From the IMG/VR virus record IMGVR_UViG_3300031565_004844, positions 1 to 38,858 of that record: DNA of 38,858 bases. One strand, given 5' to 3'. Below the pieces are notes generated by a model. That model made no database searches. It saw only the letters and a list, made by a program, of their open reading frames with translations, and was not told the origin of the DNA. The position numbers and the translations under genes were made by a program. Below, in pieces: positions 9 through 36,732 of this stretch. This DNA is from a virus. Within the stretch, counting starts at the first letter, position 1, and every line of letters starts with the position of its first letter.

Positions 9-404
9 TCATTGCCCTCCTGTACTGATTGAATTCGAACCCAACTCCAACACATCGACTAATAATTTGCCCATGTGCCACATCACCAAATCGTCTACGA
101 CATCACCGTCATCCCAATGACGCTCGTCGGCTTGATCCACAAACGTTCCCGCAATTGCTCGGATGACGCTGATAATTTTCACGGCGTTGATCGGTTCAGT
201 TGTACCGTAGAATTCCTGAATTGCGTCTACGACGGGTTCAATGTATATCTTCAATGCGATGGGGATGATAGGATTAACCTCGGCGGATAACATCACCTCG
301 ATGACTGCTTGTCCGACGTCTGGCAATCCATTACATGCTGCTTGAATTGCGGTAACTATGTATTGTTGCACAACATCCGTGTCTAAATTGTGTTTCGGGG
401 TCAT
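9..404 (-). CDS. Hypothetical acidic protein, 131 aa
   Basis: I do not recognise this family. The start is chosen at 404 because AGGAG lies seven bases upstream; the longer reading frame to 455 lacks a ribosome binding site. The protein is mostly helical in appearance, acidic, with a hydrophobic middle (roughly residues 20-60) and an acidic stretch around residues 90-100 (HWDDGDVVDD). It has no signal peptide or clear membrane segment. Its stop codon is overlapped by ATG codons at 12 and 7 that follow a GGAGGG, so another minus-strand gene begins at the left edge and is cut by it. AG/CT dinucleotides are only mildly scarce here, unlike the next segment to the right. Confidence 0.6.
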   Translation of the reverse strand: MTPKHNLDTDVVQQYIVTAIQAACNGLPDVGQAVIEVMLSAEVNPIIPIALKIYIEPVVDAIQEFYGTTEPINAVKIISVIRAIAGTFVDQADERHWDDGDVVDDLVMWHMGKLLVDVLELGSNSISTGGQ

Positions 405-428
405 CACATTGCTCCTATGGGTGTATGT

Positions 429-463
429 GTTGTCATAACGTGACAACATCGTCAATCGTTGAC
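429..463. promoter_or_regulatory. Two small inverted repeats upstream of the 9-404 gene
   Basis: GTTGTCA-taacg-TGACAAC (429-447) is followed three bases later by GTCAA-tcg-TTGAC (451-463). Both share the half-site TTGAC/TTGTCA and lie just upstream of the minus-strand gene ending at 9. They look like operator dyads rather than terminators because they have no T-tract and sit on the promoter side of that gene. I did not find a convincing -10/-35 pair there. Function is inferred. Confidence 0.5.
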
Positions 464-465
464 TA

Positions 466-516
466 CGATTGTGTTTGGATATTATCGTATGTTGTGGTAA
501 TATTCAAACACAATCG
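466..516. repeat. 19-bp inverted repeat (long hairpin)
   Basis: Arms 466-484 and 498-516 are complementary over 19 positions with one G:T wobble, around a 13-base loop. The hairpin begins two bases after the small dyads and touches the next hairpin at 517. It could be a transcription barrier for the minus-strand gene 580-1044, a protein site, or an RNA structure. Confidence 0.8.
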
Positions 517-544
517 CCCATCCATATCGTATGATATGGATGGG
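517..544. terminator. Perfect 12-bp hairpin with 4-base loop
   Basis: CCCATCCATATC (517-528), loop gtat, GATATGGATGGG (533-544). It lies 36 bases downstream of the stop of the minus-strand gene 580-1044, the place for a terminator, but no clear T-tract follows on that strand. It abuts the longer hairpin on its left, so the pair may act together. Confidence 0.55.
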
Positions 545-579
545 ACGTTGTGTTATTCGTGCGTGATAAAACGTGACGT

Positions 580-1044
580 TTATTTTGTACGAGGATTCAC
601 CACCAAATTGTTGACATCAAATCCGGCGGCGGTCATTGCCGCAATGAATGCGTCATATTCGGACATTGCGCCCGATTCGGACGTGGTGTTCAAATACAAT
701 GCGAATTTGTTTCGCCCGTCATCACGGCGTGAACGTGACGACACATTCAACAATGTGTCAGGAACGTCGTGTTGGTCGTTGGCGATAATCCACGTTCCGA
801 ATTGTAATTTTGTGTTGGGCAATTCACCATTGCGCGCGCATTCGCGAACGCGTGATTTCCCCGCGTCATCAGTGAAACCGTGTGTTTCGGCCCAAGTGGA
901 TAATTCGGTGTATGCGGTTACCGTGGGCGTGATTGGTGCGTGGGTCGCGTCACGGTTGTCCACCGACATCAAACGTTCGGTTCCCGATTTTGATACGTGT
1001 ACCGTCGATTCGATTGAATATTTTCCCAATTTTTTCGTTGCCAT
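580..1044 (-). CDS. Excisionase/MerR-like DNA-binding protein, 154 aa
   Basis: Start at 1044 (the second of two adjacent ATGs) is chosen because GGGAG then lies six bases upstream. Residues about 44-90 (TELSTWAETHGF...VRECARNGELPN...FGTWIIAND) have the shape of the winged helix of excisionases and MerR-type regulators: a helix-turn-helix in which an Arg-rich recognition helix is followed by G-x-L/I-P and a small wing ending in a Trp-Ile strand. The rest (about 100-154) is unknown. Codon use is extreme (no AG- or CT-containing codons apart from a few), matching the island it sits in. A promoter with an internal dyad lies upstream. Likely a DNA-binding regulator; the exact target is unknown. 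Confidence 0.55.
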   Translation of the reverse strand: MATKKLGKYSIESTVHVSKSGTERLMSVDNRDATHAPITPTVTAYTELSTWAETHGFTDDAGKSRVRECARNGELPNTKLQFGTWIIANDQHDVPDTLLNVSSRSRRDDGRNKFALYLNTTSESGAMSEYDAFIAAMTAAGFDVNNLVVNPRTK

Positions 1045-1079
1045 CATAAACTCCCATGTGTTACACGTTCGACGATAAA

Positions 1080-1112
1080 ATTATCCAACATATGGGTGAA
1101 CGTGTCCCATAT
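1080..1112 (-). promoter_or_regulatory. Candidate promoter with internal operator dyad for the 580-1044 gene
   Basis: On the minus strand GGGACA (1108-1103) and GATAAT (1085-1080) are separated by 17 bases, a reasonable -35/-10 pair. An inverted repeat ATATGGG-n9-CCCATAT (1090-1112) covers the spacer and the -35 element, the expected place for a repressor operator. The predicted start of transcription would be about 30 bases before the ATG. Confidence 0.4.
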
Positions 1113-1156
1113 ATTAAATGTTTGCGGATTGTAAACGGTGGTGTTTCGGTGTGACG

Positions 1157-1399
1157 TTATATTACCAACGTCGGCCATTGACATTTGAATGGTTCATGAT
1201 TAAACGGATTGACCAACATATCCGCCGGGCCGTGACGATATTCAATATCATCACGTCGTATACCGTGAATATATATACCTGATGTTACGATGTAATATTG
1301 TGTACATCCATTGCACAGCGTATATGTTTCGGCGTGCGGGTGTGATGATACAACGTGAAACGTTTCGCGTATGTGTCCACATTGCAATTTCGGTGTCAT
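1157..1399 (-). CDS. Small Cys/His protein, possible zinc-binding, 80 aa
   Basis: The protein has CGH near residue 7-9 and CNGC at about residues 29-32, with several further histidines, which could bind one zinc ion; this is a weak fingerprint, not a family match. GGGGGG lies seven bases before the ATG. An extended -10 promoter sits upstream at 1451-1461. It shares the AG/CT-poor composition of its left neighbour. I cannot assign a function. Confidence 0.5.
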   Translation of the reverse strand: MTPKLQCGHIRETFHVVSSHPHAETYTLCNGCTQYYIVTSGIYIHGIRRDDIEYRHGPADMLVNPFNHEPFKCQWPTLVI

Positions 1400-1450
1400 G
1401 TATGTACCCCCCGTTTAATGTTGGGTGGATTGTTTCCCACCCACATATAT

Positions 1451-1461
1451 ATTATACCACA
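1451..1461 (-). promoter_or_regulatory. Extended -10 promoter TGTGGTATAAT
   Basis: On the minus strand TGTGG is followed directly by TATAAT, then ATATATG. No good -35 is present at 17 bases. The same word, including the ATAT tail, occurs at the promoters at 2791-2819 and 13687-13715. It would drive the small Cys/His gene (1157-1399). The TGGGTGG dyad at 1422-1443 lies just after the expected transcription start and may be an operator. Confidence 0.6.
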
Positions 1462-1674
1462 TACGGGGATGTGTACCGTTACGGATGCGTGACAAATGCG
1501 TTACAACGATATGGGTTGTGTTTATTACCGGGGATGTGTGAATGCGTCCGGGTATTTACGTATTGTGGGTAGTTGGTTTGGTTCGATACTCGCTTCGCGT
1601 TTTGTTTTTGTGTGTGGCGTGGCGTGGCGGCGTGGCATATTTTGCGCGTCGCGAGTGACAACGGTGGGGCTCGG

Positions 1675-1723
1675 ACGCGCGTGTGCGCGTGTGTGCGCAT
1701 ACGTACGTGTGCGTGTGCGTGTG
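1675..1723. repeat. 49-base alternating purine-pyrimidine (Z-DNA-prone) tract
   Basis: Every base from 1675 to 1723 alternates purine and pyrimidine, built of CG, TG and CA/TA steps. GC- and GT-rich alternation of this length is the classic left-handed DNA signal under negative supercoiling. It lies between the three-helix-turn-helix gene and the small Cys/His gene, near the right end of the AG/CT-poor island. Confidence 0.85.
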
Positions 1724-1764
1724 AATGAATATGATATCGTCTACCTCCATAGTAGAACCGAGTT

Positions 1765-2361
1765 TTACTCCGCCAGACTAACAACTTCAAAAACAATCTC
1801 AGGATGTACTAGTTTCTTAGTCTTCGCCGTAATAGCCATTCGTAGCGGCAAACCGTAACCATGAACTATTTTATATATCTTGGTCACACTAATTCCTAGT
1901 TCCATACGCATATCTCTCAACGGCATTCCTATTAAAGGATTTCTTTCTCCCGTATCTGGATCTATAGGAGCATACAATTCGATCACATCTTCTTCCAGAC
2001 GTTTCCTTCCTGCGCTATAGCGATCCACGAATCCTCGTTTGGGAACTCCCTTGCTGTCCAACACAGCATAAAACGTTCGTGTGTTAATATGCCATTTTGC
2101 TACGATTTCCCACACTGGCATTCCTAGTTGATAATCTTCCACAGCCCCATCATACACTGCTGCTCCCCGTTTTTTGGCTTCCATATCTGGATCGCTACCA
2201 GTATATATCTTTGCATCAACTAAGATCTCAATAACCTCCGGAACTGTGATTTCCAGTTCTGCTGCAATTGCATTCGGAGAAAGTGATTCTCCACCTTGCC
2301 CGCCGTACATTGCCACTGCCAAACTTTTCAATCCTTGCGTAATTCTATGCGTGCTGGTCAT
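1765..2361 (-). CDS. Three-helix-turn-helix DNA-binding regulator, 198 aa
   Basis: Three segments look like helix-turn-helix units: about residues 26-50 (NAIAAELEITVPEVIEIL), 78-105 (GMPVWEIVAKWHINTRTFYA) and 145-172 (GMPLRDMRMELGISVTKIYK). The last two share the opening G-M-P, suggesting internal duplication. Such repeated resolvase-type helix-turn-helices are known in phage regulators and small terminase-like proteins. Here the gene is alone, on the minus strand, facing away from the virion operon, with a perfect consensus promoter, so a regulator of the divergent control region is the best reading. AAAGGAG lies eight bases before the ATG. Composition returns to normal in this gene. Confidence 0.6.
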   Translation of the reverse strand: MTSTHRITQGLKSLAVAMYGGQGGESLSPNAIAAELEITVPEVIEILVDAKIYTGSDPDMEAKKRGAAVYDGAVEDYQLGMPVWEIVAKWHINTRTFYAVLDSKGVPKRGFVDRYSAGRKRLEEDVIELYAPIDPDTGERNPLIGMPLRDMRMELGISVTKIYKIVHGYGLPLRMAITAKTKKLVHPEIVFEVVSLAE

Positions 2362-2395
2362 TTCTTCATCTCCTTTGATTTTCGATCATATATAC

Positions 2396-2424
2396 ATTAT
2401 AACATATTCATCGTATAATGTCAA
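2396..2424 (-). promoter_or_regulatory. Consensus sigma-70-type promoter for the 1765-2361 gene
   Basis: On the minus strand TTGACA (2424-2419), 17 bases, TATAAT (2401-2396), with TGT just before the -10. Both hexamers match the consensus perfectly. Predicted start is near 2389, giving a leader of about 28 bases with a good ribosome binding site. Confidence 0.85.
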
Positions 2425-2530
2425 TGTTGTTATTATTTTATCATTTTACATTCGCACGGACAACTACGCAACTTATAACCAACCTGACCATTTTGTTGTA
2501 TTTATGATGATGTGTTTATTTTGTTATTTT

Positions 2531-2554
2531 AATATTTATATTTAAATAAATATT
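2531..2554. repeat. AT-only inverted repeat
   Basis: AATATTTA (2531-2538), spacer TATTTAAA, TAAATATT (2547-2554). Every base is A or T. This could be a protein-binding dyad or part of a DNA-unwinding element. Confidence 0.6.
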
Positions 2555-2576
2555 TATACCGGTATTAGGGGACATC

Positions 2577-2624
2577 GATAATAATAGACATATGCTTAAG
2601 TTAATATACACATCTATTATTATC
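2577..2624. repeat. Perfect 12-bp inverted repeat with 24-base spacer
   Basis: GATAATAATAGA (2577-2588) and TCTATTATTATC (2613-2624). The centre-to-centre distance of 36 bases is near three to four helical turns, which suits two protein dimers on one DNA face. It sits midway between the divergent promoters. Confidence 0.75.
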
Positions 2625-2790
2625 ATCCCAAATACATGTGGTGTGTATATATTTCCAATTTTCGAAAATAAAACCGTAAAATAATAAAATAATCACGTCA
2701 TCATATACCGCCACATTCCCCTGGATTATAATATCTTCCCATCTTGCTCCGATTCAAAGCTCATTTTCTTGTGTATGGGTTCCAGCGGCA

Positions 2791-2819
2791 TTGACATTAT
2801 AATTGATTTGTGGTATAAT
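2791..2819 (+). promoter_or_regulatory. Consensus promoter of the packaging/virion operon
   Basis: TTGACA (2791-2796), 17 bases, TATAAT (2814-2819), with the extended -10 TGTGG directly in front. Transcription is expected at about 2826, only about three bases before the ATG at 2829. The first gene would therefore have almost no leader. Confidence 0.88.
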
Positions 2820-2828
2820 ATCTTTATA

Positions 2829-4728: not shown

Positions 4729-6517
4729 ATACGGGGAAATTTCCTTGTGGTATGGCAATCGCAATGCCCTTCTACATACTCAAGATTTGTTTTATCGTGG
4801 GGTTCAATGGGAAGATGACGAGACTGATGACAATGCTCAAGAACTCATTCGTGTGACGTTGAACTATACACGGCTCACGATTTTGAAACAAGTAGCATAT
4901 TTAACGGGGAAGGCTCCTCGTGTTGACGTTCTCGAAACTGGATTGGGAGTTGAAGCAAGTAAACGGGAAAGGTATCTACGTGCTGTGCACAAACATTTGT
5001 GGCCTGTATGGTCATCTTCCGTGGAACATGATGCGGCCAAGTCAGGCTATGGGGTTATCCAGGCTATCTGGGCCCCAAAGGTAACATCTCGTAAGGCTCT
5101 CGATGCTTTGGAAACTCCTCTTAAGGAATATACCACTGTTCCATTCAAATTCCGTTCGATCAATCCTGTAGATTTCTTTCCCATGTATCGTACACACGAT
5201 GAACCTGATGACTTCATGTACGTATTTATACGTGAACAAGATCGGTTAATCGAAGATCTTGAGGAACGTTATGGTGTGGCGCTGCAACCCACGTCTACCT
5301 TACAGGGAACTACTGGTACTTGTGAGGTTGTAGAATACTGGACAAAAGATCGTTACGTGTTAATGGCAATTACTACTACGAAAAATGAACGCGGTGCTGC
5401 CCTTAAGGATACACATACTCCCCACATTATAAAAGATGAAAAACACGGGTATGGCAGAATCCCTTTCTTTGTGGTATCCAATATTTCACAGCCGCATAAA
5501 AATCCAACTATCGAGGGTTCCCTTTCGGATTTGGAATTAGTCATGGAAGTACAGAAACATCTGAATCTTGTGTGGTCAATGACTGCTACTGAAATCATGA
5601 CTCGTATGCGACCTCCAACGGTGTATACATCGGACAATCCTACCCACGTTGCAAGTGAGCTACGGATTGGAGCAGGTGAGGTTATTCCTATCGAGTCGAC
5701 GGAAAAGTTAGAATTTATGCGGTGGGAAGGTATTCCTTCTACTGTTGAACAGCATAGTGATGATACAATGGCTGCATTGTCAGATTTCGGTAGTCTTCCT
5801 CGAACGGAATTTGGCGGTGGTAGCACTCCGCCGTCCGGTGTGGGAATGAAACTTTCCTATGGAAATCTAGAATTGTGTTTAACATTGAAAGTTCCACGCC
5901 GAACGGAAACCTTCCAACGAATATATTCGTTTTGTTTAGAGGTTACGGAAAAGAAGTTAGGGACAGCTGGGATCATCAACTTTTCTTTTGTGGATACGCC
6001 CGATGTAATCCTCGACGTTAATCTTCTGGCTAAGGATATTGGAGGTCGTTATGAATGCGAAGTCTCCTATCCGAATCTTCTTCCTCGGGACAAGATTACA
6101 TTCGAGCAACATATTGTATATCTTTACAATGCCAAAATCATTTCCTTGCGTACAGCTCTTGAAATGATTGAAGATGTACAAGATCCAGAAGCTGAGATTG
6201 CACGTATACAGAAAGAATCAAAAGATCCAATTTTGTTCCCGGAACGTGTGGCAGCCACTACGCAAGCATCAACACCTCCCCTGGAAGCAGGAGCTGGTGG
6301 TCCCTCGCAACAGCAACCTGGATTAGATTTGAAATTCAATTCGGCACCTTCTGTACCCCAATCACCAGAGATGCCTACGGGAGTAAATACTCCCTATCTT
6401 GCACGGCAACCTCAGATGCCTACGGGACAAGGTATGGGATCAGGACTAAATGCAGGACAGATGTTTAATCGAAGTCCTGGAGTGTATCAAGGACCTCCCA
6501 CACAGGAGACGATTTAA
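4694..6517 (+). CDS. Portal protein, 607 aa
   Basis: Portal proteins form the twelve-fold ring at one capsid vertex through which DNA passes. Position directly after the large terminase, length, and the sequence pattern support this: an early segment ending VAYLTGKAPRVDV, a central VVEYWTKDRYVLMAI strand pair, a basic/proline loop IPFFVVSNISQPHKNPTIEG, and the following helix SDLELVMEVQKHLNLVWSM, as in SPP1-type portals. Residues after about 520 are a low-complexity Gln/Pro/Gly/Met tail with a repeated MPTG. AGGAG lies about 13 bases before the ATG. The stop codon shares one base with the next ATG (TAATG), so the giant downstream protein is translationally coupled. Confidence 0.88.
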   Translation: MVENEASLIFAKYGEISLWYGNRNALLHTQDLFYRGVQWEDDETDDNAQELIRVTLNYTRLTILKQVAYLTGKAPRVDVLETGLGVEASKRERYLRAVHKHLWPVWSSSVEHDAAKSGYGVIQAIWAPKVTSRKALDALETPLKEYTTVPFKFRSINPVDFFPMYRTHDEPDDFMYVFIREQDRLIEDLEERYGVALQPTSTLQGTTGTCEVVEYWTKDRYVLMAITTTKNERGAALKDTHTPHIIKDEKHGYGRIPFFVVSNISQPHKNPTIEGSLSDLELVMEVQKHLNLVWSMTATEIMTRMRPPTVYTSDNPTHVASELRIGAGEVIPIESTEKLEFMRWEGIPSTVEQHSDDTMAALSDFGSLPRTEFGGGSTPPSGVGMKLSYGNLELCLTLKVPRRTETFQRIYSFCLEVTEKKLGTAGIINFSFVDTPDVILDVNLLAKDIGGRYECEVSYPNLLPRDKITFEQHIVYLYNAKIISLRTALEMIEDVQDPEAEIARIQKESKDPILFPERVAATTQASTPPLEAGAGGPSQQQPGLDLKFNSAPSVPQSPEMPTGVNTPYLARQPQMPTGQGMGSGLNAGQMFNRSPGVYQGPPTQETI

Positions 6518-9500
6518 TGCCTACACAAAAAGGTCGTAAATGGTTACCGCCAGGAGAACTAACTGCCCCGACTCCTCCTACCGTACCATCTACTCCTGAA
6601 GTTGTTGTTCCTCCGAATCGTCAGCCTGTTCCTCCGAAGGACGAGAAATGGTTACCTAAGCAACCGCCCATCCCGCAAAGTTCTGTACAACAGGTTGAGA
6701 AATTCCTTCCTAAGCTTCCATCCGCTCCTTCTGACTTGGGGATTGCTGGTGGCGCAAAGTTCGGACCACCTCCTCCTCCAAAGAAAATTCCTCAGGTTTC
6801 CCGCCCGAAGGGTGTGGCTCCTATTACATCGAAAGTACAACAGCAAACATCCAAACAAGCACTTAACGAATCCCTGACGGATATAAGTGGTAAGATGCCG
6901 TTCTCCTCGAAAAAATATTATGATCGCTTGTTAAACGAAATGTACGGGGATATGACCGACGAGGAACGGGAAGTGTTTGGGTACACAAGTACAAGTCCCA
7001 CGAAACCCACAGAACTTGATCCTGTAATAGCTGGGGCGTATATAATTCCTCCCAACGATCTAAAGATATTGTGGAACGCCGTTGCTGGATGGGTGACAGG
7101 TCGTCTATTGAATGAATTCGCCAAAGTTCCCGAGCGTTTCTTGTGGATGATTAACGAGATTGATTTCGCTGCTGTTGCTCCATCTACATTATGGGGCGGA
7201 CCTTCAGCGTATGAACTTGCATTGGCTGGTCAATTGCCACAGGAAACTGCTGATGAAGTTATTGCCGCAAAGGAACATTACTTCAATGCTTCGTCAGAAG
7301 AAATGTGGCAATACTGGCAAGAGGGTACGATTGGCTATACATTGATGCTACATCCTGAACCGCTAATGGCGGATCGTGGGGGAGAACGAATTCCTGGTGT
7401 GGAAAATGTTGGACGTCTTGATCAGATGCGTTATGATATTTCTCAGGGAATGACGTATCGTGAAGCTGAAATGAAATATGGTGACTTCTGGACTCAGTTA
7501 ATCGGGGAAACTCTTCTGGATCCAGCTAATCTATTGGGTCCGACCGCTACGAAGGTGTTGTTTCCTGGGATTGTAGTATTACAGGAAGGGTTACAAGTAC
7601 TTGGAAAATATGTAATCAAAGATGTTGCGAAGTTTGCCGATGCCATTATGAAACAACCCGTAGGTGAATGGTTACTTCAAACGTCCCAACGGTCAGCCGT
7701 GCGTGTGGCAATTATTGAGTCTCATGATGCGTGGTCCGAACTTGTGTTGCATCTACCCAGTGGAGCAGCAATGCAAGAATCCGTAACGAGTATTCTTCGT
7801 GGACGATTCGACGAGGAGCTATTTGCTAATGTAACCGACCAAACTTCGTTGGCAATTCGTAGGCAAGTTGGACAATTTGCATCTGATGGTGTACGAGATT
7901 TTGACGGACTTATTACCCGATATATTCCTAAGATTGGGGATTTGTTGGATGAACCCGCATTCCAGGCAGCTTTTGCTGACAATGCTTCGGAATGGACGAT
8001 TCATCTTCTCGAGCGTGCCGCCGAACGGCGAGCGATTCAACAGATTGCTAGAGCATCAGGAAAACAAGTTAGTGAAATATCGTTGGATGTATTCGGTAAA
8101 GGTGCTATTACAGAATTCTATGACTTCGTGGGTGGTGTGTGGAAAGAAACCCTTTTAGGAGTTAATCCAGCGTATGTAATTGGAAACCTAACTGACAATA
8201 CTGTAAAGTCATGGTTATGGGGACACTTCATCAATCCGTTCAAATTTGGAGCTACACAACAGATTACACAAGCAATGGCCGATCAGGGTGGATATCTTCC
8301 TGCGATGGTAAAATCTGGATTCATTGCGGACCAACTTGGTAGCATGGGACAACCCAAATCTGCATCTATTCCTATTCCTGGGATCGGTAAACCAGCGGAG
8401 ATTGTAGATGTGTGGTCCAAGATTCTCGGTGTAGATATTCGCGGGGCGTCATCGTTGGTGGATAAGTTAGCACCTAAACGGGCGGAACCACTTTCCGCTT
8501 TATTGTTGACATCGTCTCCCCCGTCTCGATTGGCAGCATTTCTTGACAACGCAAACTATTCCAGATTAGTCCAGGGCGGAGCATCTCTGTCGGATTTGAT
8601 TGAAAAGACAGCCCGTGTTCAAGTATTCTATGATACGTTTTCTAAATATATGGTGGATAAGGGACGTCCTGCTGTCACACAATTGTCACAATCTATGGAT
8701 CTTCCAGAATACGTTACGAAGATGTTAGGAAATCCTGGACTGATAAAGTCCGCTGATGACATTGTTGGTATTTTGGATTCTTATGTATCCAGTACTGGCG
8801 AAGCAATGGTAACGAAAATTAGTAGTTTATTGCCCGAAGGTGCTACTGATGACGTGTTTGCTGCTGCCGCTAAAGAATTGGATGGATGGCAAGATTGGTG
8901 GGCGGCTGGAGATAATCCTCTGGAACATGTTGACGAATTTATGGTTAAGGTTGACGAACTTCTTGACGGCTTGATTAACAAATCTCAGGAATTCAAAGAT
9001 GCTTCGGAAGTAGAAGATGTGATTGCAGCATGGCGTTCAACCAAAATGAGACAAGCTGTCGGTTTTCTTGTGGAGGAGTCTAGGACATTACGCGACGATT
9101 TACGAACTATGGCCTGGACACATTATCAACAACAGCCTAAGTTGGGAGGATCAATCTGGTCGCGGTATTTTGATGAGGTTGGAGAAGTGTCCAATGCTAC
9201 GATGGATGAGATTTCTCGTTTGTTGGAAGCAAAAGTTCCTGATCTGTCAGATAGTATTCGTGGGGTTATTGGAAAATATCGCAAGGCTACGGTTGCCTGG
9301 GTTCAAGATTTATCTACACAAGAATGGAGTGATTTCGGAGCACAACTTCTGGAATTACGTAGTGGTGTAGATGATGCTACTGATTCGTTGTGGAGGGCTT
9401 TGGTGTCGAATCCTTCGGCGGATGGTCTTGAACAAATAGGTAATGTGTTTGACGAATTGGCAGTACTTGCACGGGAAGCCTCCGATGCGGCATCTGTTGT

Positions 9501-12500
9501 TAGGGATGGATACATAGCACAAATGTCGCGGGCGGGTGGTGCTAGAATTACTCCTGAGGATTATCGTGCTCAAATGAATCGTATTTGGGTAGAAAGGTAT
9601 TTCCAACCGGCTAGGGAAACGGCACTATCCGTAGCAACGGATATGGGTGCTGATCCTCCTTCTCGACTTATTGTTGTGGGAATGTCCGATACAGGAAAGA
9701 AGTTGGCGGGTAGACCTGATGTTCCCTGGAACATGATGTATACGTCCGGAAACAAAAGTATGGAAGTAATGACAGGTGCGGCGGAAGGTGGGCATTGGGA
9801 AGATGCCGCGCGTGCGTTAGGAATAACACCCAAAGAATATATGGGACGGTTACAAAGTCCTGACAATCCTATGGCTCCCGTGGTACGGATTACTAACAAT
9901 ACCGAAGGTGGATATCTTGTCTTACAATATTATGGTGGACAAGGTGCCGAAGGGGAACTTGACGAGGTTACGGCTACGTTACTGCGAACTTTGAAAGGTA
10001 ACGGGATGGACGGTGGACAGCTAGTATATATCACTGGCGATCCTGAAATTATATCTTTGGATGATGCGTTGGCTGGAATCGAAAGTAGGGTTGGTGATGG
10101 AATGTTACCTCAAGCCGGGGATTCTATGGATATTCCAACGGCTATGCAAGACTTAACTTCTAAAATCCAGCGGGAAGAGATTACGTGGGACGAATACCAG
10201 GAACGTCTTCATGACCTTATGGTTGAAGCAGAGCATGGCCCTGGAGGTTTCCGCGATGAAACGTCTCGTGCAACGTCTGCTGAATTTCTGAAACAATCTG
10301 AAGAAATGCAGGGTTACGCACAGGCTTGGCGCGATAATATATACCAGAATGTTCAGGGATTCTCCGAAACACGAAGTGTGTCTGATGCTGAAATGTCTCA
10401 GATGAAAAAGAATTTGGCAACGTTAGCTAAAGAATATGCCCACCAAATTTCTGCAGGAATGATGGCAGGTTCCTTCGAAACGGATCGAGTTTTGTTTAAC
10501 TATTCTATCAAACAAAACTGGGAAGAATTGTTACGGTTTTATGCTCCGTTTACAACTTGGCAGGTTCGCAATCCGATTATGTGGTTGCAACTTATGAATC
10601 AACGTCCAGGAGTTGCATCATTCCTTCAGCGTCTAAATAAACTAACTGAAGACGAACGGGTTAATCGTAACTTGACTACTCGATTTGAAGGTACAGTTCC
10701 AATTCCAGGTCAAGAGTGGTTACAACAGCAAGGTGTGTTACCGGAAGGATACTACGGGGCGGATCCAGCGGCATTCTTTTCCATTCAATCTCAGGGTCAG
10801 GAACCGTTTCAGTCTCCTGCAGAAGGAGACATGACCGGTGCCAAATCTATAATCAATCAAGCCCTCAGGTTGCCAGAATATGCAGGAGTTACTCCATATC
10901 CCTGGCTACAATGGCCCCTTGAAAAGATTGGAGCATACGGTAATCGTCCTGCATGGGGAATGACTGGACCAATCGGTAGAGCAATTCCAGCTTTACGTCG
11001 TTGGGAACAAGAACAGGGACATAAGCGGGTTCCTGGTTCCGAATGGCTACAAACGTTTTTGGTCAATCGACAGTTATCTATTATGGTACAGGAAGGTCGG
11101 GCTGATCCTATACAGGCAAGTATTGCCTTGGGCGATAAAGAAAATGACTTGTGGCAACTTGCCGAAGAAGAGATATTAAGTCAACAAGATAAGATGTCTA
11201 CGTACCGAACGGCATTGCCCGTTTCCGTTAAGTATGCTCCTCCTGGTGAAATGGAATTACGGGAGACGCGAGCGGAATTGCGGGAAACTCCTGAAACACG
11301 TGCTGCATATTTGCGGTCACAAGAACCCGCACAAGGATTGTATTCTCGTGCTATTGCCTTTACGGATAATCCTGAATGGGCACAATGGGCGTCTAAACGA
11401 GATGCAGTCTATTTGAAATATAACAATATGATCGGAGAACTTCCTCCCTGGCATCCTCGTGTGAAAGAATTACGCGATGCAATGTATGCGGAAATTGAAT
11501 CTTTGGGGGTAGCACCTGAGAAGGTTGACGAATTTGGATATGCTCAGGAACCAGGGGGACAGTCCAAAGAATCTTTGTTGTTTGAGATGGAACAAAATCG
11601 TCCGCGCTATGAAGATTTTGTTGACTGGAAAGGAAATGTAGATTGGGAAGCATATCAACAGGCCGAAGCTGGATGGATTGAACAAGTCGGACTTATTTCA
11701 AATCAACAAGGAAATATGATTCAACCGGATGAATATCAGGCTTTCCGAGAACGTTATCAATCTCCAGAGGAATTGGGTTGGGGGTTACGACAAGATCAAC
11801 TTAGCAAGGGATGGGAACAATATCCAGGGTTACGGGATCAAGAAGTACCCGAAGGTTTCGGAACGAATCCGTTAATATCTGCAGGGACAGTTCCCGAACG
11901 GGGAATTCCTCAAGATCAACGTACCCAATTAAACTTCGGCGGGGAGGGGATGGCTCCGGAAATGCGAGACTGGTTAATCGGAGAATGGCAAGGTAGACAA
12001 CAGGCTGGATGGACAGAAGAACAATTTGCGGAGTGGGCTAGTGGTCAGGGATTGCCTTACGATGAAGTGTACCGAATTCTTAATGAACGGGGATTCGGTC
12101 CCCAACCGTTGAGTTCTATGCAAAAAGGTGTTGAGCGGTTCCGACCGTGGCTACAGGGAATGGAACCAGATAATCCTGAGATGGGAAGACTTGGTACACT
12201 GGGTTCGGAGATGATGCCGGGTATGTTTGATGTGGGCGAAACGGCAAGTGATCGTGAAGTCGAACAGTTCAAAAATACTTTCTATAATCTATTCCCGTTA
12301 CAACGTCGCGAAATGGAAAAGATGTTAGGTATTCCTACGGGGACGGATATAAATGTTTGGACAGAAGAAAACAAGGATCGCTTCCGCGAACTCTTCCCGT
12401 ACGGTATGTGGACATTGCCACAAGTTCCAGAGGTTCAGGAGCGATATTCCGCCGAACAAGCATTCGTTAATTGGAGATTGACCGGAGACTGGGATCCCAT

Positions 12501-13680
12501 TCTCGATCAATACTACGGTAGTCCTGACGCTGGAAAGACAAAATTCTGGGATTATCTTGGGACGTTGGTATTGTCCGATGCTGCGTACGAAGATCCAATG
12601 CTGGGTCCCATGCTTAAATCCGAGGTTCGAGATTTATATGCATTCACAGATGAACAATATCTGATAGCTATGAAGTACGTGCAAGACAACCAAATTTTCC
12701 TTGTGGATGAACGCGTCGCTGCGTTGAAAGCCGAGCATCCAGACTGGTGGGATGTTGCTCAACAACAAATGCCTTTAGTACGGGGTGTAGCATCTGTAGA
12801 GGGATGGAACGAATACAATTCTCTGGAAACTCCTAACGATCAAAAACTATGGCGTGAAGAACACGAAGCTCAGTGGATTTCCATGACGGATTCTTTGAAC
12901 GAGAGAAACGCTATGATGGTACAAAATCCGCATTATACATACTTCTATGATCCGGATAAATATAAACAATGGTTTGGAGACGTTCTTCCCGACGATGTCG
13001 ATGTAGCATTGGAACTTTCGAATTATATGAAAGCATCTAATCAAATGAATCGTGTACGCGAAACGGGCGGATCGTGGACTTCTGAGATGGAAAAATGGTT
13101 TGGTGACGAAGGATCGGCGTCTACCCGCTTCTGGAATAAATATTATGGAATGAAAGATATGTTGACGGACGAGTATCGCGATGATGGAGTATTGATTGCT
13201 GCATTGTCGAGTGACGTTCGCGGACTTATTCTTTCCGATGCAATGATACCAGTATATGAGGAAGCAATCAAACGTCTTTCCCGTTATTACGATTCCGAAA
13301 AGTCAGAACGTTGGGGAGTCTACCCCGAATTACGTCAACAAGCTGCGGCGGAACGTAGTGAATTGCTTTCAATATTTGACTATGATGCCATACCTACGGA
13401 TTCAAAGGAAGAGAATGCGTGGTGGAAAAGATGGACAGATTGGGTAAAAAGTCATCCAGTTATGGCATATTTCTATTATTACAGTACGTATGTACGATAC
13501 TTCGGAACAACGCCACCAGGAGATGTGGGAGGGACTCCAGAACCTCAGGCTCCTTCAGCACCTTCTGAGCCAACGGCTCCCTCGGAACCTTCAACGCCTT
13601 CGGAACCCGTTGCTCCTCCAGGAGTTCCCAGTATACCTTCACTTCCACCTCCACCACCGCCGCCACCACCCATGCCATAA
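6517..13680 (+). CDS. Giant virion-associated protein, 2387 aa
   Basis: The largest gene takes 18% of the window. Residues 1-120 are Pro/Lys-rich, with a repeated KWLP/KFLP motif. Around 543-571 is TLLGVNPAYVIGNLTDN, resembling the NPa-x4-N(L) signature of large polyvalent phage proteins, and around 1341-1365 is FYAPFTTWQVRNP, also seen in that group. The second half is rich in Trp, Gln and Glu. The last 50 residues are a PSEP/APSE stalk ending in nine prolines. It lies between portal and scaffold, as do internal or ejected proteins and minor head proteins. I see no protease, lysozyme or tape-measure signature. AGGAG precedes the ATG. Likely packaged or portal-bound and possibly ejected; function is inference. 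Confidence 0.75.
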   Translation: MPTQKGRKWLPPGELTAPTPPTVPSTPEVVVPPNRQPVPPKDEKWLPKQPPIPQSSVQQVEKFLPKLPSAPSDLGIAGGAKFGPPPPPKKIPQVSRPKGVAPITSKVQQQTSKQALNESLTDISGKMPFSSKKYYDRLLNEMYGDMTDEEREVFGYTSTSPTKPTELDPVIAGAYIIPPNDLKILWNAVAGWVTGRLLNEFAKVPERFLWMINEIDFAAVAPSTLWGGPSAYELALAGQLPQETADEVIAAKEHYFNASSEEMWQYWQEGTIGYTLMLHPEPLMADRGGERIPGVENVGRLDQMRYDISQGMTYREAEMKYGDFWTQLIGETLLDPANLLGPTATKVLFPGIVVLQEGLQVLGKYVIKDVAKFADAIMKQPVGEWLLQTSQRSAVRVAIIESHDAWSELVLHLPSGAAMQESVTSILRGRFDEELFANVTDQTSLAIRRQVGQFASDGVRDFDGLITRYIPKIGDLLDEPAFQAAFADNASEWTIHLLERAAERRAIQQIARASGKQVSEISLDVFGKGAITEFYDFVGGVWKETLLGVNPAYVIGNLTDNTVKSWLWGHFINPFKFGATQQITQAMADQGGYLPAMVKSGFIADQLGSMGQPKSASIPIPGIGKPAEIVDVWSKILGVDIRGASSLVDKLAPKRAEPLSALLLTSSPPSRLAAFLDNANYSRLVQGGASLSDLIEKTARVQVFYDTFSKYMVDKGRPAVTQLSQSMDLPEYVTKMLGNPGLIKSADDIVGILDSYVSSTGEAMVTKISSLLPEGATDDVFAAAAKELDGWQDWWAAGDNPLEHVDEFMVKVDELLDGLINKSQEFKDASEVEDVIAAWRSTKMRQAVGFLVEESRTLRDDLRTMAWTHYQQQPKLGGSIWSRYFDEVGEVSNATMDEISRLLEAKVPDLSDSIRGVIGKYRKATVAWVQDLSTQEWSDFGAQLLELRSGVDDATDSLWRALVSNPSADGLEQIGNVFDELAVLAREASDAASVVRDGYIAQMSRAGGARITPEDYRAQMNRIWVERYFQPARETALSVATDMGADPPSRLIVVGMSDTGKKLAGRPDVPWNMMYTSGNKSMEVMTGAAEGGHWEDAARALGITPKEYMGRLQSPDNPMAPVVRITNNTEGGYLVLQYYGGQGAEGELDEVTATLLRTLKGNGMDGGQLVYITGDPEIISLDDALAGIESRVGDGMLPQAGDSMDIPTAMQDLTSKIQREEITWDEYQERLHDLMVEAEHGPGGFRDETSRATSAEFLKQSEEMQGYAQAWRDNIYQNVQGFSETRSVSDAEMSQMKKNLATLAKEYAHQISAGMMAGSFETDRVLFNYSIKQNWEELLRFYAPFTTWQVRNPIMWLQLMNQRPGVASFLQRLNKLTEDERVNRNLTTRFEGTVPIPGQEWLQQQGVLPEGYYGADPAAFFSIQSQGQEPFQSPAEGDMTGAKSIINQALRLPEYAGVTPYPWLQWPLEKIGAYGNRPAWGMTGPIGRAIPALRRWEQEQGHKRVPGSEWLQTFLVNRQLSIMVQEGRADPIQASIALGDKENDLWQLAEEEILSQQDKMSTYRTALPVSVKYAPPGEMELRETRAELRETPETRAAYLRSQEPAQGLYSRAIAFTDNPEWAQWASKRDAVYLKYNNMIGELPPWHPRVKELRDAMYAEIESLGVAPEKVDEFGYAQEPGGQSKESLLFEMEQNRPRYEDFVDWKGNVDWEAYQQAEAGWIEQVGLISNQQGNMIQPDEYQAFRERYQSPEELGWGLRQDQLSKGWEQYPGLRDQEVPEGFGTNPLISAGTVPERGIPQDQRTQLNFGGEGMAPEMRDWLIGEWQGRQQAGWTEEQFAEWASGQGLPYDEVYRILNERGFGPQPLSSMQKGVERFRPWLQGMEPDNPEMGRLGTLGSEMMPGMFDVGETASDREVEQFKNTFYNLFPLQRREMEKMLGIPTGTDINVWTEENKDRFRELFPYGMWTLPQVPEVQERYSAEQAFVNWRLTGDWDPILDQYYGSPDAGKTKFWDYLGTLVLSDAAYEDPMLGPMLKSEVRDLYAFTDEQYLIAMKYVQDNQIFLVDERVAALKAEHPDWWDVAQQQMPLVRGVASVEGWNEYNSLETPNDQKLWREEHEAQWISMTDSLNERNAMMVQNPHYTYFYDPDKYKQWFGDVLPDDVDVALELSNYMKASNQMNRVRETGGSWTSEMEKWFGDEGSASTRFWNKYYGMKDMLTDEYRDDGVLIAALSSDVRGLILSDAMIPVYEEAIKRLSRYYDSEKSERWGVYPELRQQAAAERSELLSIFDYDAIPTDSKEENAWWKRWTDWVKSHPVMAYFYYYSTYVRYFGTTPPGDVGGTPEPQAPSAPSEPTAPSEPSTPSEPVAPPGVPSIPSLPPPPPPPPPMP

Positions 13681-30534: not shown

Positions 30535-30952
30535 TTAATAACTTAAACTTTCGCATGGAATTCCATTTCGATCTGCATCCAATCCATGTACGTCACGACC
30601 TACCACAAGTAGACAATACTCAAAACAAGCTAGTGCTTCGTGATACGTACCAAAGTCCGTGCAATTAAGCGTATTCTCGGAACAGACACATACAATAACC
30701 TGTACTGATGTCGCTATAGGTTTCGGAGTGTACGTTGGGGGTAAGGTAGACGTCGCTATAGGTGTCTGTATACTGGTTAAAGTAGCTGGAGTTGGTAGCC
30801 GTAATGTAGGCGTTAGCGTTCTGGTATTTTTTCGAGTAGTTGGTCTGTAGAATAGCCCACAACAAACGCAAAGCAACACCAAAATTCCCCCCGACAATCA
30901 AAACAATTCGTAACTTCTTGCTTTTCTTCTTAGTATTTATTTCTATCCTCAT
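30535..30952 (-). pseudogene. Excalibur-domain membrane protein split by a frameshift
   Basis: Two frames make one protein. From 30952 the first frame gives a Lys-rich start and a hydrophobic LRIVLIVGG, then runs out of frame at six G's (plus-strand 30887-30892). The other frame continues ILVLLCVCCGLFYRP, a PT-rich stalk and a C-terminal Excalibur domain with NCTDF, EALACFEYC and DADRNGIPCES (calcium-binding D-x-D-x-D/N-G-x-x-C-E). Dropping one G joins them into one signal-anchor/stalk/Excalibur protein of about 138 aa. The first ATG overlaps the polymerase stop (TAATG) and has GGGAG upstream, confirming the true start. This is a sequencing or biological indel, or programmed slippage. Excalibur domains are found on extracellular proteins. 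Confidence 0.65.
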
Positions 30953-33666
30953 TATAAATCTCCCCAAGATTGTCCGATTTTTGTATCCGCCTTATGTTCA
31001 ACAGACGGAAAGTATTGTTTAGCAGTGGCTACCATGATTTGTGACAGCTCCGCCGCGACGACATCCACAAGAAAATCTTTGACGCAAAACAGCACGCTGT
31101 CATGAACGGTTACCAGAAGACGAACGTCATTAGTGTACATATATTTCTTGTGTAATGTAAGAGCAGCAATGATAGTTACGTCCGACGCTGGGCCTTGAAT
31201 CGGTGTGTTTTGTGCAGCGTGGATCGCTTCTATCTTATTGTCTTCCGTTATGACAGGGAAGTGACGTTTCCTTCCGAACGTAGTAACGATGATTCCAGAT
31301 TTTAGAACGTCGTTGGCTACGTCTACCCGCCACTGAACAGCTCCCTTGAAATTTTCATTCCAGTTATCAGCAAACTGTCGTGCTTCTTCTTCAGGGAATC
31401 GTAACGCATCCCTTGCAATCTGGAACACATCTCCGCCGTATAGCCATCCGAATACGGCCCGTTTGCAGTACCAGTTTCGCTGTTCTTTTGTGAAATTATC
31501 TCCGTAAATTTTACGGGCAACCTCACTATGGAAGTCAGCATCTGGTTTGTTTAACACATTTCTCATAAACTCATCACCAGTAACATCTGCTGCGATACGT
31601 AACTCACATTGGCTAAAGTCAGCGTATACGATTTTATAGCCTTCCGGGACAATGAATCCTGAAGCAATCATACTTCCCCAGGCATCATCGTCCCGTGGAA
31701 TTGTCTGGATGGGAGGATCGCTTGCGGATATACGTCCGGTTACTGTACCATATAGTTTATAGCGTGGATGTACACAGCCATCTGTTCCCATTGCAGCAAT
31801 GAATTTCTTTGCATACGAAGATTGTAGCTTAGTGAGTGATCGGTATTCCCTCAACATTGTTAGGAATTCGTAGGCCTCCCGGGTGATGAATTTAGGCTTC
31901 CGTTCATTCAATCCGTACTTATCAAAATCAAGGGCCATAATCTTTGGGAGACTATCCCATTGTCTAGCCCATTTCTGTAAGTCTTCGTCAGGACGAACAC
32001 CTAACTCCTCCAGAACCCTCTCCCTATGTGGGGATGAGAAAATCAAGCTGACCATTGCTGTACGAAACAAGTCGAGAAGTTTGTCCTGGGCTTCTTTCGC
32101 CGTGGACCTGGGCTTTAACTTCGTACCTTTGGAAATTGTCCTGACGGATAGGGTAGAGGGAAGAACGAATAGGTCGTAGATTATAGTACTCATCTGCATT
32201 GACGATGCGGGATTGAACTCGTCTAGAATTCCTTCCAGCGCTTTGACATATTTCCGACGTAGCTGGATTTCAGGTGGTAAGTCAGCTACCTTTCGACCTT
32301 TCCAGAAAGATGCTTCCCCTTTAACCAGTTCGTAATGATCGAATGCCATCGTAGTAATGAGGTCGGCCATTTTCTTTAGCATGGCATCAACTTCATACTG
32401 TAATCCCTGGTCCACCTTTTCAAGATGAGCTTTGTCAATCATGAAGCCCTGGATTTCAGCATCCACGAACATGGGAACTACAGCCATCAGCGGAAAGAGG
32501 AATGGTTTTTCCCACATATCCTCTTTACGTAATAGCCGCTCGAATTCAATTGCCAACCTTCGCGTACATTCCGTGTCGATGGCGTTGTATTTGTACAGTA
32601 CTTTTGTAGGTATTTCACTGTACCTGGAGTTACGTCCATGTGAAAGATACTTTACGACATCAGCTTCATAGTCAGGCATATCCAGATATTCTGTGGCTAG
32701 TTGCTTTAGTCCGTGTGTTCCGCCATATTCCCACAAACAATAATGGGCAAGTAGCGTATCCATGTCACATCTAGCATTGTCTACGCACAACTGACCAATC
32801 AAAAATCGAAGATCAAACTGTGCGTTGTGCATCACGAAGCGTATATGTCGCCGCGTGAATACATCCACAAGAAATTGCCTAGCATCTTCTCGAACCATGT
32901 CCCTTGTAATTCCAGTCTCATCGTTAGCCAGAAATAGCAGCGGTTCATATATTTCTTTTGTGGTAATGATTGCAGCGCGATTCTCCGCATACGAAAACGA
33001 AATTGACAGAACGTAGTTTCGCTGGTGATCTATCTGATCCGTTTCCGCATCGATTGCCACGAAAGTATCGTTGGGTAGACCGTCGAGAACCGCAAGGAAC
33101 TGGTCGTAGTTACTCACATTAAGCATTCCGATTGACGGATTTACTGGGTGCTGTATCGGACCTCGAACGTAGCGTCGTATGTCCATCAGGAATGAATAGG
33201 ATTGTTTGACATCATACAAGACATATGCCGGATGTGCTCCAACGTATGTATTATAATGCCATCCCCGAGCTTCTGTATATCGTTGTCCGCTAAGCTTTGG
33301 AACTAGAATGTCCCGCGCTGTCGTCCCAGCTGCATAGATACAGGTATCTTGTGGAAGAAAACACAATTCCGCCTGTAAATCCACTCCACAAGAAAAAATC
33401 ATTTCTGGTGTAATCTTGTTCCCTGGAGGTCGACACTTTACGATGTTTGTGAAATACACATCATGTTGATTGACACCTTCCATCCACAAAGCACGACGGA
33501 TTACTCGTCCACTTTTACCAACGAATGGTTCTCCCTTTAGTTGTTCGTCAGCACCTGGAGCCTCACCAACAACACAATACTTTACTGCGGATATATCTCC
33601 TGATGGTAGTATGGGATTGAACTGTTCTCGTAAGGGACATGTCTCACATTTTGAATAGGGATTCAT
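30952..33666 (-). CDS. Uracil-DNA glycosylase fused to family A DNA polymerase, 904 aa
   Basis: Residues 1-165 are a family 4/5-type uracil-DNA glycosylase with the 4Fe-4S ligands C7, C10, C78 and C93, the GEAPGADE loop (34-41) and HPA (145-147). Next is a proofreading 3'-5' exonuclease: Exo I D206-A-E208, Exo II N281...D285 (HNAQFD), Exo III Y360...D364. The polymerase has motif A DFSQCELR (D683), motif B with K735, F739 and Y743, and motif C HDS (H855-D856-S857), where the usual Glu is Ser. All other catalytic residues are intact. No 5'-nuclease domain. It is the replicative polymerase candidate. AAGGA lies seven bases before the ATG. Similar fusions are known in a few phages such as SPO1-like ones. 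Confidence 0.92.
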   Translation of the reverse strand: MNPYSKCETCPLREQFNPILPSGDISAVKYCVVGEAPGADEQLKGEPFVGKSGRVIRRALWMEGVNQHDVYFTNIVKCRPPGNKITPEMIFSCGVDLQAELCFLPQDTCIYAAGTTARDILVPKLSGQRYTEARGWHYNTYVGAHPAYVLYDVKQSYSFLMDIRRYVRGPIQHPVNPSIGMLNVSNYDQFLAVLDGLPNDTFVAIDAETDQIDHQRNYVLSISFSYAENRAAIITTKEIYEPLLFLANDETGITRDMVREDARQFLVDVFTRRHIRFVMHNAQFDLRFLIGQLCVDNARCDMDTLLAHYCLWEYGGTHGLKQLATEYLDMPDYEADVVKYLSHGRNSRYSEIPTKVLYKYNAIDTECTRRLAIEFERLLRKEDMWEKPFLFPLMAVVPMFVDAEIQGFMIDKAHLEKVDQGLQYEVDAMLKKMADLITTMAFDHYELVKGEASFWKGRKVADLPPEIQLRRKYVKALEGILDEFNPASSMQMSTIIYDLFVLPSTLSVRTISKGTKLKPRSTAKEAQDKLLDLFRTAMVSLIFSSPHRERVLEELGVRPDEDLQKWARQWDSLPKIMALDFDKYGLNERKPKFITREAYEFLTMLREYRSLTKLQSSYAKKFIAAMGTDGCVHPRYKLYGTVTGRISASDPPIQTIPRDDDAWGSMIASGFIVPEGYKIVYADFSQCELRIAADVTGDEFMRNVLNKPDADFHSEVARKIYGDNFTKEQRNWYCKRAVFGWLYGGDVFQIARDALRFPEEEARQFADNWNENFKGAVQWRVDVANDVLKSGIIVTTFGRKRHFPVITEDNKIEAIHAAQNTPIQGPASDVTIIAALTLHKKYMYTNDVRLLVTVHDSVLFCVKDFLVDVVAAELSQIMVATAKQYFPSVEHKADTKIGQSWGDL

Positions 33667-33827: not shown

Positions 33828-33927
33828 CTTTATTTCCTCCTTTTAAGATTGTAACATGTGCTACCCATCCAAGACTGGATGGTGTGATGTGAGCTATAGT
33901 TGGTTTGAGTTTAGGTTTTGTATCCAT
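33787..33927 (-). CDS. Possible 46-aa protein overlapping two genes
   Basis: A Lys/Pro-rich start (MDTKPKLKPTIAHITP) then LGWVAHVTILKGG. The frame overlaps the end of the TGT-like gene by 17 bases and the start of the 53-aa gene by 41 bases. AAGGAG lies 12 bases upstream. It fills an otherwise empty 83-base gap. Moderate support only. Confidence 0.35.
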   Translation of the reverse strand: MDTKPKLKPTIAHITPSSLGWVAHVTILKGGNKDATRSSDDKGKGS

Positions 33928-34870
33928 ATTTTATTAAGACTCCTTGTGCCTGGTCGGGTTTGGTTAGGCTATATTTGAATGTATCATCCACGAAGTCGTA
34001 CCATCCAAGGGGTGATAGTGCTGGATGAATCTCGTCTAAATTCTTGGGGATGGTATCAAGTTTAAGAATCGACATTGGGTTGTATTCCGTTACAAGTCTT
34101 GTCGTTCCCCAGTTAGCTAAGATTCTCCTGTTCATATTACATAGAATCAGCAATGCATCTCCGAAGCTTCGCTTATGTTTTAATGGTAGCTTAACGGAAT
34201 TAGGTGTGATGTTTTTCCCGTCGGCTCCCAACGCAAATGCTAACGAAGTGTCCGCGAATTCAATGTCCTCGCGGGGTAATTCATTACACAAGAAATCTTG
34301 TACATCAGGAACACCTAGCAAATGTATCGGGTAATCAAAAGATAACATTTCGTCAAGAATCTCAGATCTTTTGTGAACTGTATCCCAATCCGCTGGAGAT
34401 ACGAATTCTATCCGCGGACATGGAACTGCCAACATTAGATCGTATAGGTTGAAAGGTCCGTCTGTAGTCCACCAATTCAACCACGCTTCGGTTGCCCGTA
34501 ACACCGTAGCCGGACAGCTTCCATGTGTTACAAATGCGACTGTAGGTATACCAATACCTTCTTCTGCTATCTGCAATATTGCCTTTCTGGATCGAATCAA
34601 TGTTTGCTTTGGATCCAAAATTACATCCGGCAATACTACAATGTTCGGCTTGATTCGTTTTACTACACGAATCCACGGTTCGTAAGCCATCATATGTCCT
34701 TCAAACGCACCGTTATCCATGATAACGATAGTTCCTTCTGGTCTGAGGGCATTCTCGTAAAATGCCACGTACTTAGGCTCAGAATACAACCAGGGAGAGA
34801 TCACCATATGGTAATCTCCCCTGGCGTATCTGTCCGCATACGCTGCCACAGCTATATGCGCTATTCTCAT
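33911..34870 (-). CDS. TGT/DpdA-like nucleobase transglycosylase, 319 aa
   Basis: Family members exchange guanine for a 7-deazaguanine: in tRNA (TGT) or, for DpdA in phages and bacteria, in DNA. MDNGAFEG (51-58) matches the (D)SGAF loop, LPDVILDP (80-87, D82) and HLLGVPD (183-189) match barrel strands, and FADTSLAF (205-212, D207) fits the position of the second catalytic Asp. The C-terminal zinc site of tRNA TGTs (Cys x3, His) is not visible, which agrees with DpdA-type rather than tRNA enzymes. AGGAGG lies five bases before the ATG. A YhhQ-type precursor transporter two genes upstream in the same operon strongly supports a 7-deazaguanine role. Substrate (DNA or tRNA) is inferred. Confidence 0.65.
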   Translation of the reverse strand: MRIAHIAVAAYADRYARGDYHMVISPWLYSEPKYVAFYENALRPEGTIVIMDNGAFEGHMMAYEPWIRVVKRIKPNIVVLPDVILDPKQTLIRSRKAILQIAEEGIGIPTVAFVTHGSCPATVLRATEAWLNWWTTDGPFNLYDLMLAVPCPRIEFVSPADWDTVHKRSEILDEMLSFDYPIHLLGVPDVQDFLCNELPREDIEFADTSLAFALGADGKNITPNSVKLPLKHKRSFGDALLILCNMNRRILANWGTTRLVTEYNPMSILKLDTIPKNLDEIHPALSPLGWYDFVDDTFKYSLTKPDQAQGVLIKYGYKT

Positions 34871-35795: not shown

Positions 35796-36422
35796 TTATT
35801 TTGCCCTCCTCAAGGAAATTAACGGAATTGAGATTACTGTGACACCAAGTTTAAAGATGGTCGTGGCCTTAATCACACCCCACAAGGCGACCATCGGCAT
35901 TGTACCCGCAAAGGCTAACCCAGCGAATACGGCACTATCGATCACTACACCAACTAAGTTGCTTAGGAATACTCGGCTACCTACTTTCCATTGTAGGTTA
36001 AGCCCAACTTCGTAAATTGCAGTGTCAATTAATTCAGACATCAACTCAGCAACAATGGATGCAATAGTGATCCTCGGAACTGCTGTCATCAATGCCCGAA
36101 AGCCATCGTCCAGAGGCCAGAACACGGCTGGCTTTAACGTTGCCGCAAAGTACAAATATGCGGCTAGAATTACGTTTGCCAATGCTCCTGCCCAGATTAC
36201 GTTTACAGTGTTTCGTTTTCCGAGACGTTCGTGAAGAATGTCTCGCCATGTAAACGTGACCGCGAAGATGAACATACCAGCAGGGATAATGAATCCCCAC
36301 ACCTCCGCGATCTTTACTGCTGCCACATCAGCAGCCAATTGAAGTGCGATATACACAGCGATAAAATAGATATCACTGGTTCGCAACTGTGGAAAACTTA
36401 AATGTGACTTCGACCTTTCCAT
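35796..36422 (-). CDS. yhhQ: YhhQ-type queuosine-precursor transporter, 208 aa
   Basis: This membrane protein has about six hydrophobic segments and the YhhQ family signature: the first segment IALQLAADVAAVKIAEVWG, then PAGMFIFAVTFTWRDILHERLGKR (the conserved loop and helix with R-D-x-x-H-E-R-x-G), and a final SLPLISL-like segment. YhhQ imports preQ0/preQ1, precursors of queuosine and of DNA 7-deazaguanines. Start at 36422 is preferred to the GTG at 36455 because it matches the family start and an upstream GGAAGGGG. It overlaps the T-fold gene by 50 bases. Phages use this transporter to feed base-modification enzymes, so it supports the TGT-like gene. Confidence 0.85.
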   Translation of the reverse strand: MERSKSHLSFPQLRTSDIYFIAVYIALQLAADVAAVKIAEVWGFIIPAGMFIFAVTFTWRDILHERLGKRNTVNVIWAGALANVILAAYLYFAATLKPAVFWPLDDGFRALMTAVPRITIASIVAELMSELIDTAIYEVGLNLQWKVGSRVFLSNLVGVVIDSAVFAGLAFAGTMPMVALWGVIKATTIFKLGVTVISIPLISLRRAK

Positions 36423-36732
36423 GTCCTTCACCCCTTCCTTTAACTCTAACAGCACCCGTGACGGTATATAGAGGATTCATCTCCTCGACAATCCGCGTTG
36501 CAACTAACTGACACAATTCTTCCGAGGTTGTGGAATACACGGAATCCTGAAGTTCTCGGAAAATATCTTCAATGTTTCGAAGATCCAGCACACATTGAGA
36601 TTCGTCCTCTTCAACGGGAAGAATCTGATCAACCGTATACCATATAGATATGTTTGCGTTCAACGGGCCGAGCCCGAATCTACAGCGGGTATTGATCCTT
36701 CCCTTATATCTGATTGTCAACATGCTTTCCAT
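36373..36732 (-). CDS. T-fold-like small protein, 119 aa
   Basis: The pattern VLDLRNIEDIFRELQDSV then TSEELCQLVATRIVEEM and a final V-x-V-x-G strand resembles T-fold proteins such as QueD, QueF or FolB (the order strand, long helix, helix with E-x-L, strand). The zinc-binding histidines of QueD are missing, so any enzyme activity is uncertain. AAGGAG lies four bases before the ATG. It sits directly upstream of the precursor transporter, which makes a pteridine/7-deazaguanine link attractive but unproven. Confidence 0.4.
   Translation of the reverse strand: MESMLTIRYKGRINTRCRFGLGPLNANISIWYTVDQILPVEEDESQCVLDLRNIEDIFRELQDSVYSTTSEELCQLVATRIVEEMNPLYTVTGAVRVKGRGEGHGKVEVTFKFSTVANQ

Follow-up and report, generated by a model that had tools for sequence, protein, structure and literature searches.

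Why should 1.3 kb of a phage genome be almost devoid of AG and CT dinucleotides? The question is raised by a phage contig from IMG/VR, 38,858 bases long and classed as linear, which is referred to here at its full length as the window and in which about 13 AG/CT had been counted in 421-1740 against about 165 expected. Our recount gives exactly 13 (7 AG and 6 CT), and the total is the same for 418-1740, where 160.5 are expected (odds 0.08). The longest run free of both dinucleotides extends from 1317 to 1571, in agreement with the earlier count. Markov simulation of the window, repeated 200 times, brought the AG/CT count of a 1320-base stretch down to 94 at the lowest and produced gaps of 115 at most.

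The AG/CT-void segment and its genes

A two-state HMM places the edges of the void at 418 and 1740. Both edges are sharp and coincide with gene borders, in agreement with the original prediction that they lie near gene ends. AG and CT are depleted equally, in coding as well as non-coding DNA, and the dinucleotide profile of the segment is close to that of a simple AG/CT ban. The other dinucleotides had been described as normal or high, which holds for CG and AT, both raised as such a ban predicts, and for most of the remainder, which stay near expectation; GG and TT, however, are somewhat low given the ban, and AC/GT and TG are somewhat high.

These proportions bear on the kind of agent involved. 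Cleavage at the mRNA level was rejected since both strands are purged equally, which points to an agent acting on DNA. Methylation of CpT followed by deamination was also rejected, as the dinucleotide counts of the void do not contain the AA/TT excess expected from CT-to-TT mutation and decay of that type is therefore unlikely. An excess of any other single product dinucleotide was likewise not found in the void.

Weaker depletion is observed outside the void, in gene 9-404 (odds 0.50) and in the intergenic region 2362-2828 (odds 0.41), and the regulator gene at 1765-2361 is not depleted (odds 0.93). Two contigs (L005 and L006) are near-identical to the window over 22170-38858 and add 8.2 kb of genome past its right end, where the AG/CT odds fall to 0.46-0.65 towards the far end. 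Gene order suggests a circular map, on which the depletion would rise stepwise towards the void. The exact DNA of the void had no match in the viral contigs searched, and a search for RNA families and tRNAs found none.

The features of the window that are relevant to the void are as follows.

9..404, minus strand: next early gene, partly depleted of AG/CT
418..1740, no strand: AG/CT-void segment, from the recount and HMM
466..554, no strand: two AG/CT-poor inverted repeats (466-516 and 507-554) 3' of gene 580-1044, from self-complement matches
580..1044, minus strand: HTH-like gene of the P0001 family, recoded throughout without AG/CT
1157..1399, minus strand: 80-aa protein with a zinc ribbon-like Cys/His pattern, the domain being judged by eye with no database match
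1451..1456, minus strand: extended -10 element TGG-TATAAT, AG/CT-free, candidate promoter of the void unit, from a consensus scan
1765..2361, minus strand: HTH DNA-binding regulator (phrog_1303, HTH_23) of ordinary AG/CT content, upstream of the void unit
2362..2828, no strand: AT-rich intergenic region that separates the divergent early and structural genes, with partial AG/CT depletion
30952..33666, minus strand: UDG-exonuclease-PolA fusion, the replication polymerase, adjoining the DpdA-like gene
33911..34870, minus strand: DpdA-like protein (alignment A3), candidate 7-deazaguanine DNA transglycosylase
35796..36455, minus strand: YhhQ-type queuosine precursor (preQ0) transporter (TIGR00697, E 1e-21)

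The claim that codon choice is rewritten in gene 580-1044 was borne out, with four AG/CT where 46 would be expected from the protein sequence (z -8.6), and none at the codon boundaries, where 26.7 are expected. The ribosome-binding site of this gene retains one AG. The Shine-Dalgarno sequence of 1157-1399 is GGGGGG and thus free of AG; in the rest of the window, all 11 genes sampled have an AG in theirs. The TGG-TATAAT element is likely the promoter of the void transcription unit and the inverted repeats are its probable terminator, so that, read from -10 box through 1157-1399 and 580-1044 to the repeats, the void looks like one minus-strand transcription unit. A divergent structural operon starts at 2829.

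Members of the P0001 family in two related phages (G005 and G006, below) have weak HTH_17 matches. A paralogue of gene 580-1044 (L010:2057-2524, 33% identity over 78 aa) occurs in the same phage, in the early region represented by the 8.2-kb extension, and its composition is far more ordinary than that of the void gene. Single-protein scans found no close relatives of the void gene, and the terminase, the capsid and gene 9-404 gave no matches as single queries. Structure prediction without alignments was unusable for both P0001 (pLDDT 36) and the DpdA-like protein (pLDDT 31).

Three other reading frames of the window were annotated in passing. The replication polymerase combines uracil-DNA glycosylase, 3'-5' exonuclease and family A DNA polymerase in one protein; a frame at 25246-26280, placed among late genes, has similarity to Vsr/DUF559-type nucleases; and 6517-13680 is one frame of 2387 aa with no Pfam match, conserved in G003 and G004.

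Voids and base-modification genes in related phages

Capsid- and HTH-based searches led to about 60 related loci. The phage G004, from a separate metagenome and with a capsid 53% identical to that of the window phage, contains a void at 37710-38748 that adjoins a homologue of the same regulator, with 12 AG/CT against 121 expected and five CG against 45. AG/CT odds below 0.2, which the original prediction had proposed to look for in other phages, are thus found in a second genome, which is not AG/CT-poor overall (odds 1.16-1.21). In G005 and G006 the same neighbourhood holds segments void of GC (three against 33 and three against 27 expected), near regulator and HTH-family genes. The regulator has homologues that flank the void in two of these phages, G004 and G006, and one in the vicinity of the void in G005. 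In the more distant second clade, G007, G008 and G010 each have a small HTH gene surrounded by roughly 500 bases void of CC/GG, situated just upstream of the terminase gene in the latter two, and G011 has a weaker CC/GG void. What is conserved is therefore the place of the purge and not the identity of the purged dinucleotide.

The voids of the window, G004 and G005 cover whole transcription units, and Shine-Dalgarno sequences are altered in those of the window and G004. Weaker voids were also observed, one of 300 bp for CG in G012 and one for TA in G022. The latter phage, in which we found no known modification genes, has 48 AC/GT against 119 at a contig end (L137 1-1000). In G019 (L129/L130), 500 bases of low G+C (L028 14601-15100) lack any GC, and the GC-void segment of G006 (L077 7650-8150) contains degenerate tandem GAGAAACC..ATGAGAA repeats.

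Genes for preQ0 uptake or synthesis accompany the DpdA-like gene in these phages: a YhhQ transporter in the window phage and G003, and FolE with QueE in G004, G005 and G006. The DpdA-like family carries DNG..E and PDV motifs without any Pfam or PDB match, and a homologue lies within or adjoining a FolE/QueE/QueD(/QueC) cluster in the isolates Youna2, BSP7 and phiST. Gene neighbourhood and shared motifs make the family of 33911-34870 a candidate DpdA. The family is otherwise unannotated and occurs also in Campylobacter CP220-group phages, Cellulophaga phiST and Bacillus/Weizmannia phages; besides the window protein, its members include L009:12962-13939, L078:16430-17170, L075:890-1633 and L080:2253-3014. 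All phages of the CC/GG clade have a thymidylate-synthase-like gene (phrog_160) and phrog_13667, mostly with a kinase as well, and this cluster could represent a candidate pyrimidine modification. It is located at L086 5777-8982 in G007, with homologues in G008, G010, G011 and G019.

Strong voids are associated with such genes. They were found in six of the ten relatives that have modification genes and in none of the 16 without a full cluster (Fisher p 0.0009). The relatives and clades in this comparison cannot be counted as independent samples; it also includes two fragments, G003 and G019, and G018, whose only gene of this kind is FolE, was placed among the 16. A strong void was defined by odds <=0.2 and log10p<-9, cut-offs chosen after the data had been seen. 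Genome scans of CAjan, 9g, Dp-1, Youna2 and BSP7, which encode deazaguanine pathways, found no void of comparable strength; the association is thus not universal and depends on lineage or on the type of modification. In CAjan, Rosebush and HVTV-1, 28-32% of G is modified (PMC6884629), about the density that a single dinucleotide context would give, which fits modification at the dinucleotide level.

The Iggyviruses allow the purged dinucleotide to be compared with a reported motif. According to the title of Olsen 2023, as cited in PMC11945000 and PMC11008142, Iggy carries dPreQ0 at a single GA motif, which was noted before any Iggyvirus sequence was inspected. The strongest void in the genome of its relative PBPA162 is for GA/TC (32 against 124 expected, log10p -14), so that the voided dinucleotide is the motif which that title names. 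The void occupies a 1-kb divergent intergenic region at 42.7-43.7 kb of PBPA162, annotated as non-coding in that phage and in part with small hypothetical genes in other Iggyviruses. Four Iggyviruses were paired with PBPA162 and differ from it by 37-69 substitutions per pair in this region. New GA/TC numbered three in PaP002, none in Iggy, two in Knedl and one in Pa-X, where 18.9, 12.8, 20.9 and 11.8 respectively are expected, that is, 0-3 overall against 12-21 (P<0.0005 for each pair). So few gains despite so many substitutions indicate that the motif is kept out today. Avoidance of GA/TC is weak in the adjacent kilobase, and losses of GA/TC are not raised.

Possible reasons for the purge

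We consider it likely that the void is an early unit purged of the dinucleotide targeted by the phage's own base modification. The link to modification is well supported by the gene association and by the counter-selection in Iggyviruses; for the window phage itself, we infer that AG is the target. The DpdA-like enzyme, together with the preQ0 transporter, would probably put 7-deazaguanine in place of G in 5'-AG-3' on either strand, which would account for AG and CT being lost to the same extent. As 418-1740 is nearly free of AG/CT, the immediate-early unit would remain unmodified even in virion DNA, and host RNA polymerase could start on it and read through it on DNA entry, before phage factors are made. 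Relatives would in the same manner purge whichever dinucleotide their own system modifies.

Transcription by the host polymerase is the most likely reason for the void and the least certain part of this reading. The voids include promoter regions, and in Iggyviruses they cover only the divergent, largely non-coding region; the simplest reason would be that host RNA polymerase works there on incoming DNA. Against this reading, the adjoining regulator gene is unpurged, so that the purge is evidently needed by some early genes and not by all. As a general rule, we lean slightly towards the view that phages with modified DNA keep their first-transcribed units free of the modification target, which would let host RNA polymerase work on natural DNA there, and that the voided dinucleotide predicts the specificity of the enzyme. 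The predicted specificities would be AG for the window phage, AG and CG for G004, GC for G005 and G006 and CC/GG for the second clade.

The original prediction had listed a nuclease or mutator that sees CT/AG among its explanations. The observations support an agent that reads AG/CT on double-stranded DNA, but they are better explained by a base-modifying enzyme of the phage itself than by a nuclease or a mutator. Escape from a host restriction enzyme or nuclease that reads the dinucleotide, needed solely in the first-entering DNA, is unlikely. It would agree with the position of the void near early genes and has a precedent in the T5 first-step-transfer region, but a cut anywhere would be lethal and yet just 0.5-1.3 kb are purged. 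Judged from the position of the terminase in the window and G004, the void appears not to be contiguous with the first-entering end, as the regulator and other unpurged genes lie between it and the terminase in both phages. The GA purged by Iggyviruses is, moreover, the motif reported for the phage's own modification, and we know of no host system that cuts at a dinucleotide.

The small genes within the voids raise another possibility, namely that the HTH or zinc-ribbon protein of the void unit silences DNA that bears the dinucleotide and that its own gene is spared. Small HTH-like or zinc-ribbon-like genes are indeed present in the void units of the window, G006, G007, G008 and G010. However, the void of PBPA162 is annotated as non-coding, with small hypothetical genes only in part of the region in other Iggyviruses, and in G005 and G006 an HTH-family gene lies outside the void. 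To our knowledge, dinucleotide-specific binding by small proteins of these types has no known example, and we give this explanation little credence.

Mutation without selection, by which the dinucleotide would be worn away in a locally exposed region such as an origin or promoter, would hit coding and non-coding DNA alike, as observed, and would leave the Iggyviruses with few gains of GA/TC. We nevertheless judge it improbable: no one product dinucleotide is in excess, the residual sites include ribosome-binding sites, the voided dinucleotide differs among relatives at the same locus, and the Iggyvirus losses are not elevated. Recent import from an AG/CT-avoiding genome or a chimeric assembly, both put forward in the original prediction, can be set aside as highly improbable: the edges are very sharp and the left arm is not spanned by an independent contig, but G004, from another metagenome, has an AG/CT void at the same place, G005 and G006 are void there for a different dinucleotide, and the same phage carries the 33%-identical paralogue of far more ordinary composition.

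If purging of the phage's own modification target is the correct reading, self-modification would be costly at particular places, and evolution would meet the cost by removing one dinucleotide from as much as 1.3 kb of coding and regulatory sequence. The handling of hypermodified phage DNA by host polymerase at the start of infection would become testable, voids would mark candidate immediate-early promoters, and the motifs of phage DNA-modifying enzymes that await characterisation could be predicted across metagenomes from sequence alone.

Comparison with known systems

No description of motif-purged islands was found in the open-access papers searched. The closest systems are the 7-deazaguanine phages such as 9g, CAjan and Iggy, in which DpdA is combined with FolE/QueD/QueE/QueC or YhhQ; the group of the window phage has FolE/QueE or YhhQ and, beside a PolA, the candidate DpdA. 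The DpdA-like family of the window phage is, however, far from the DpdA of 9g, and its modification is predicted from genes.

In phage T5, the first-step-transfer region lacks EcoRI sites, so that recognition sites are likewise counter-selected in one early region only. The agent there is a host restriction enzyme with a 6-bp site, whereas the purge described here concerns a dinucleotide, apparently away from the leading end, and seems to be due to the phage's own modifier. The Alc protein of T4 stops transcription of unmodified DNA by discriminating it from HMC-DNA, and in this system, too, transcription is linked to whether the DNA is modified; in the reading proposed here, by contrast, an unmodified island would be maintained in otherwise modified DNA.

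In large DNA viruses of invertebrates, CpT/ApG are depleted and CpG is in excess, genome-wide and mildly (0.72) (PMC4219779). The same dinucleotides are low and high in the void, but there the depletion is local and almost complete (0.08), and the relatives of the window phage purge other dinucleotides.
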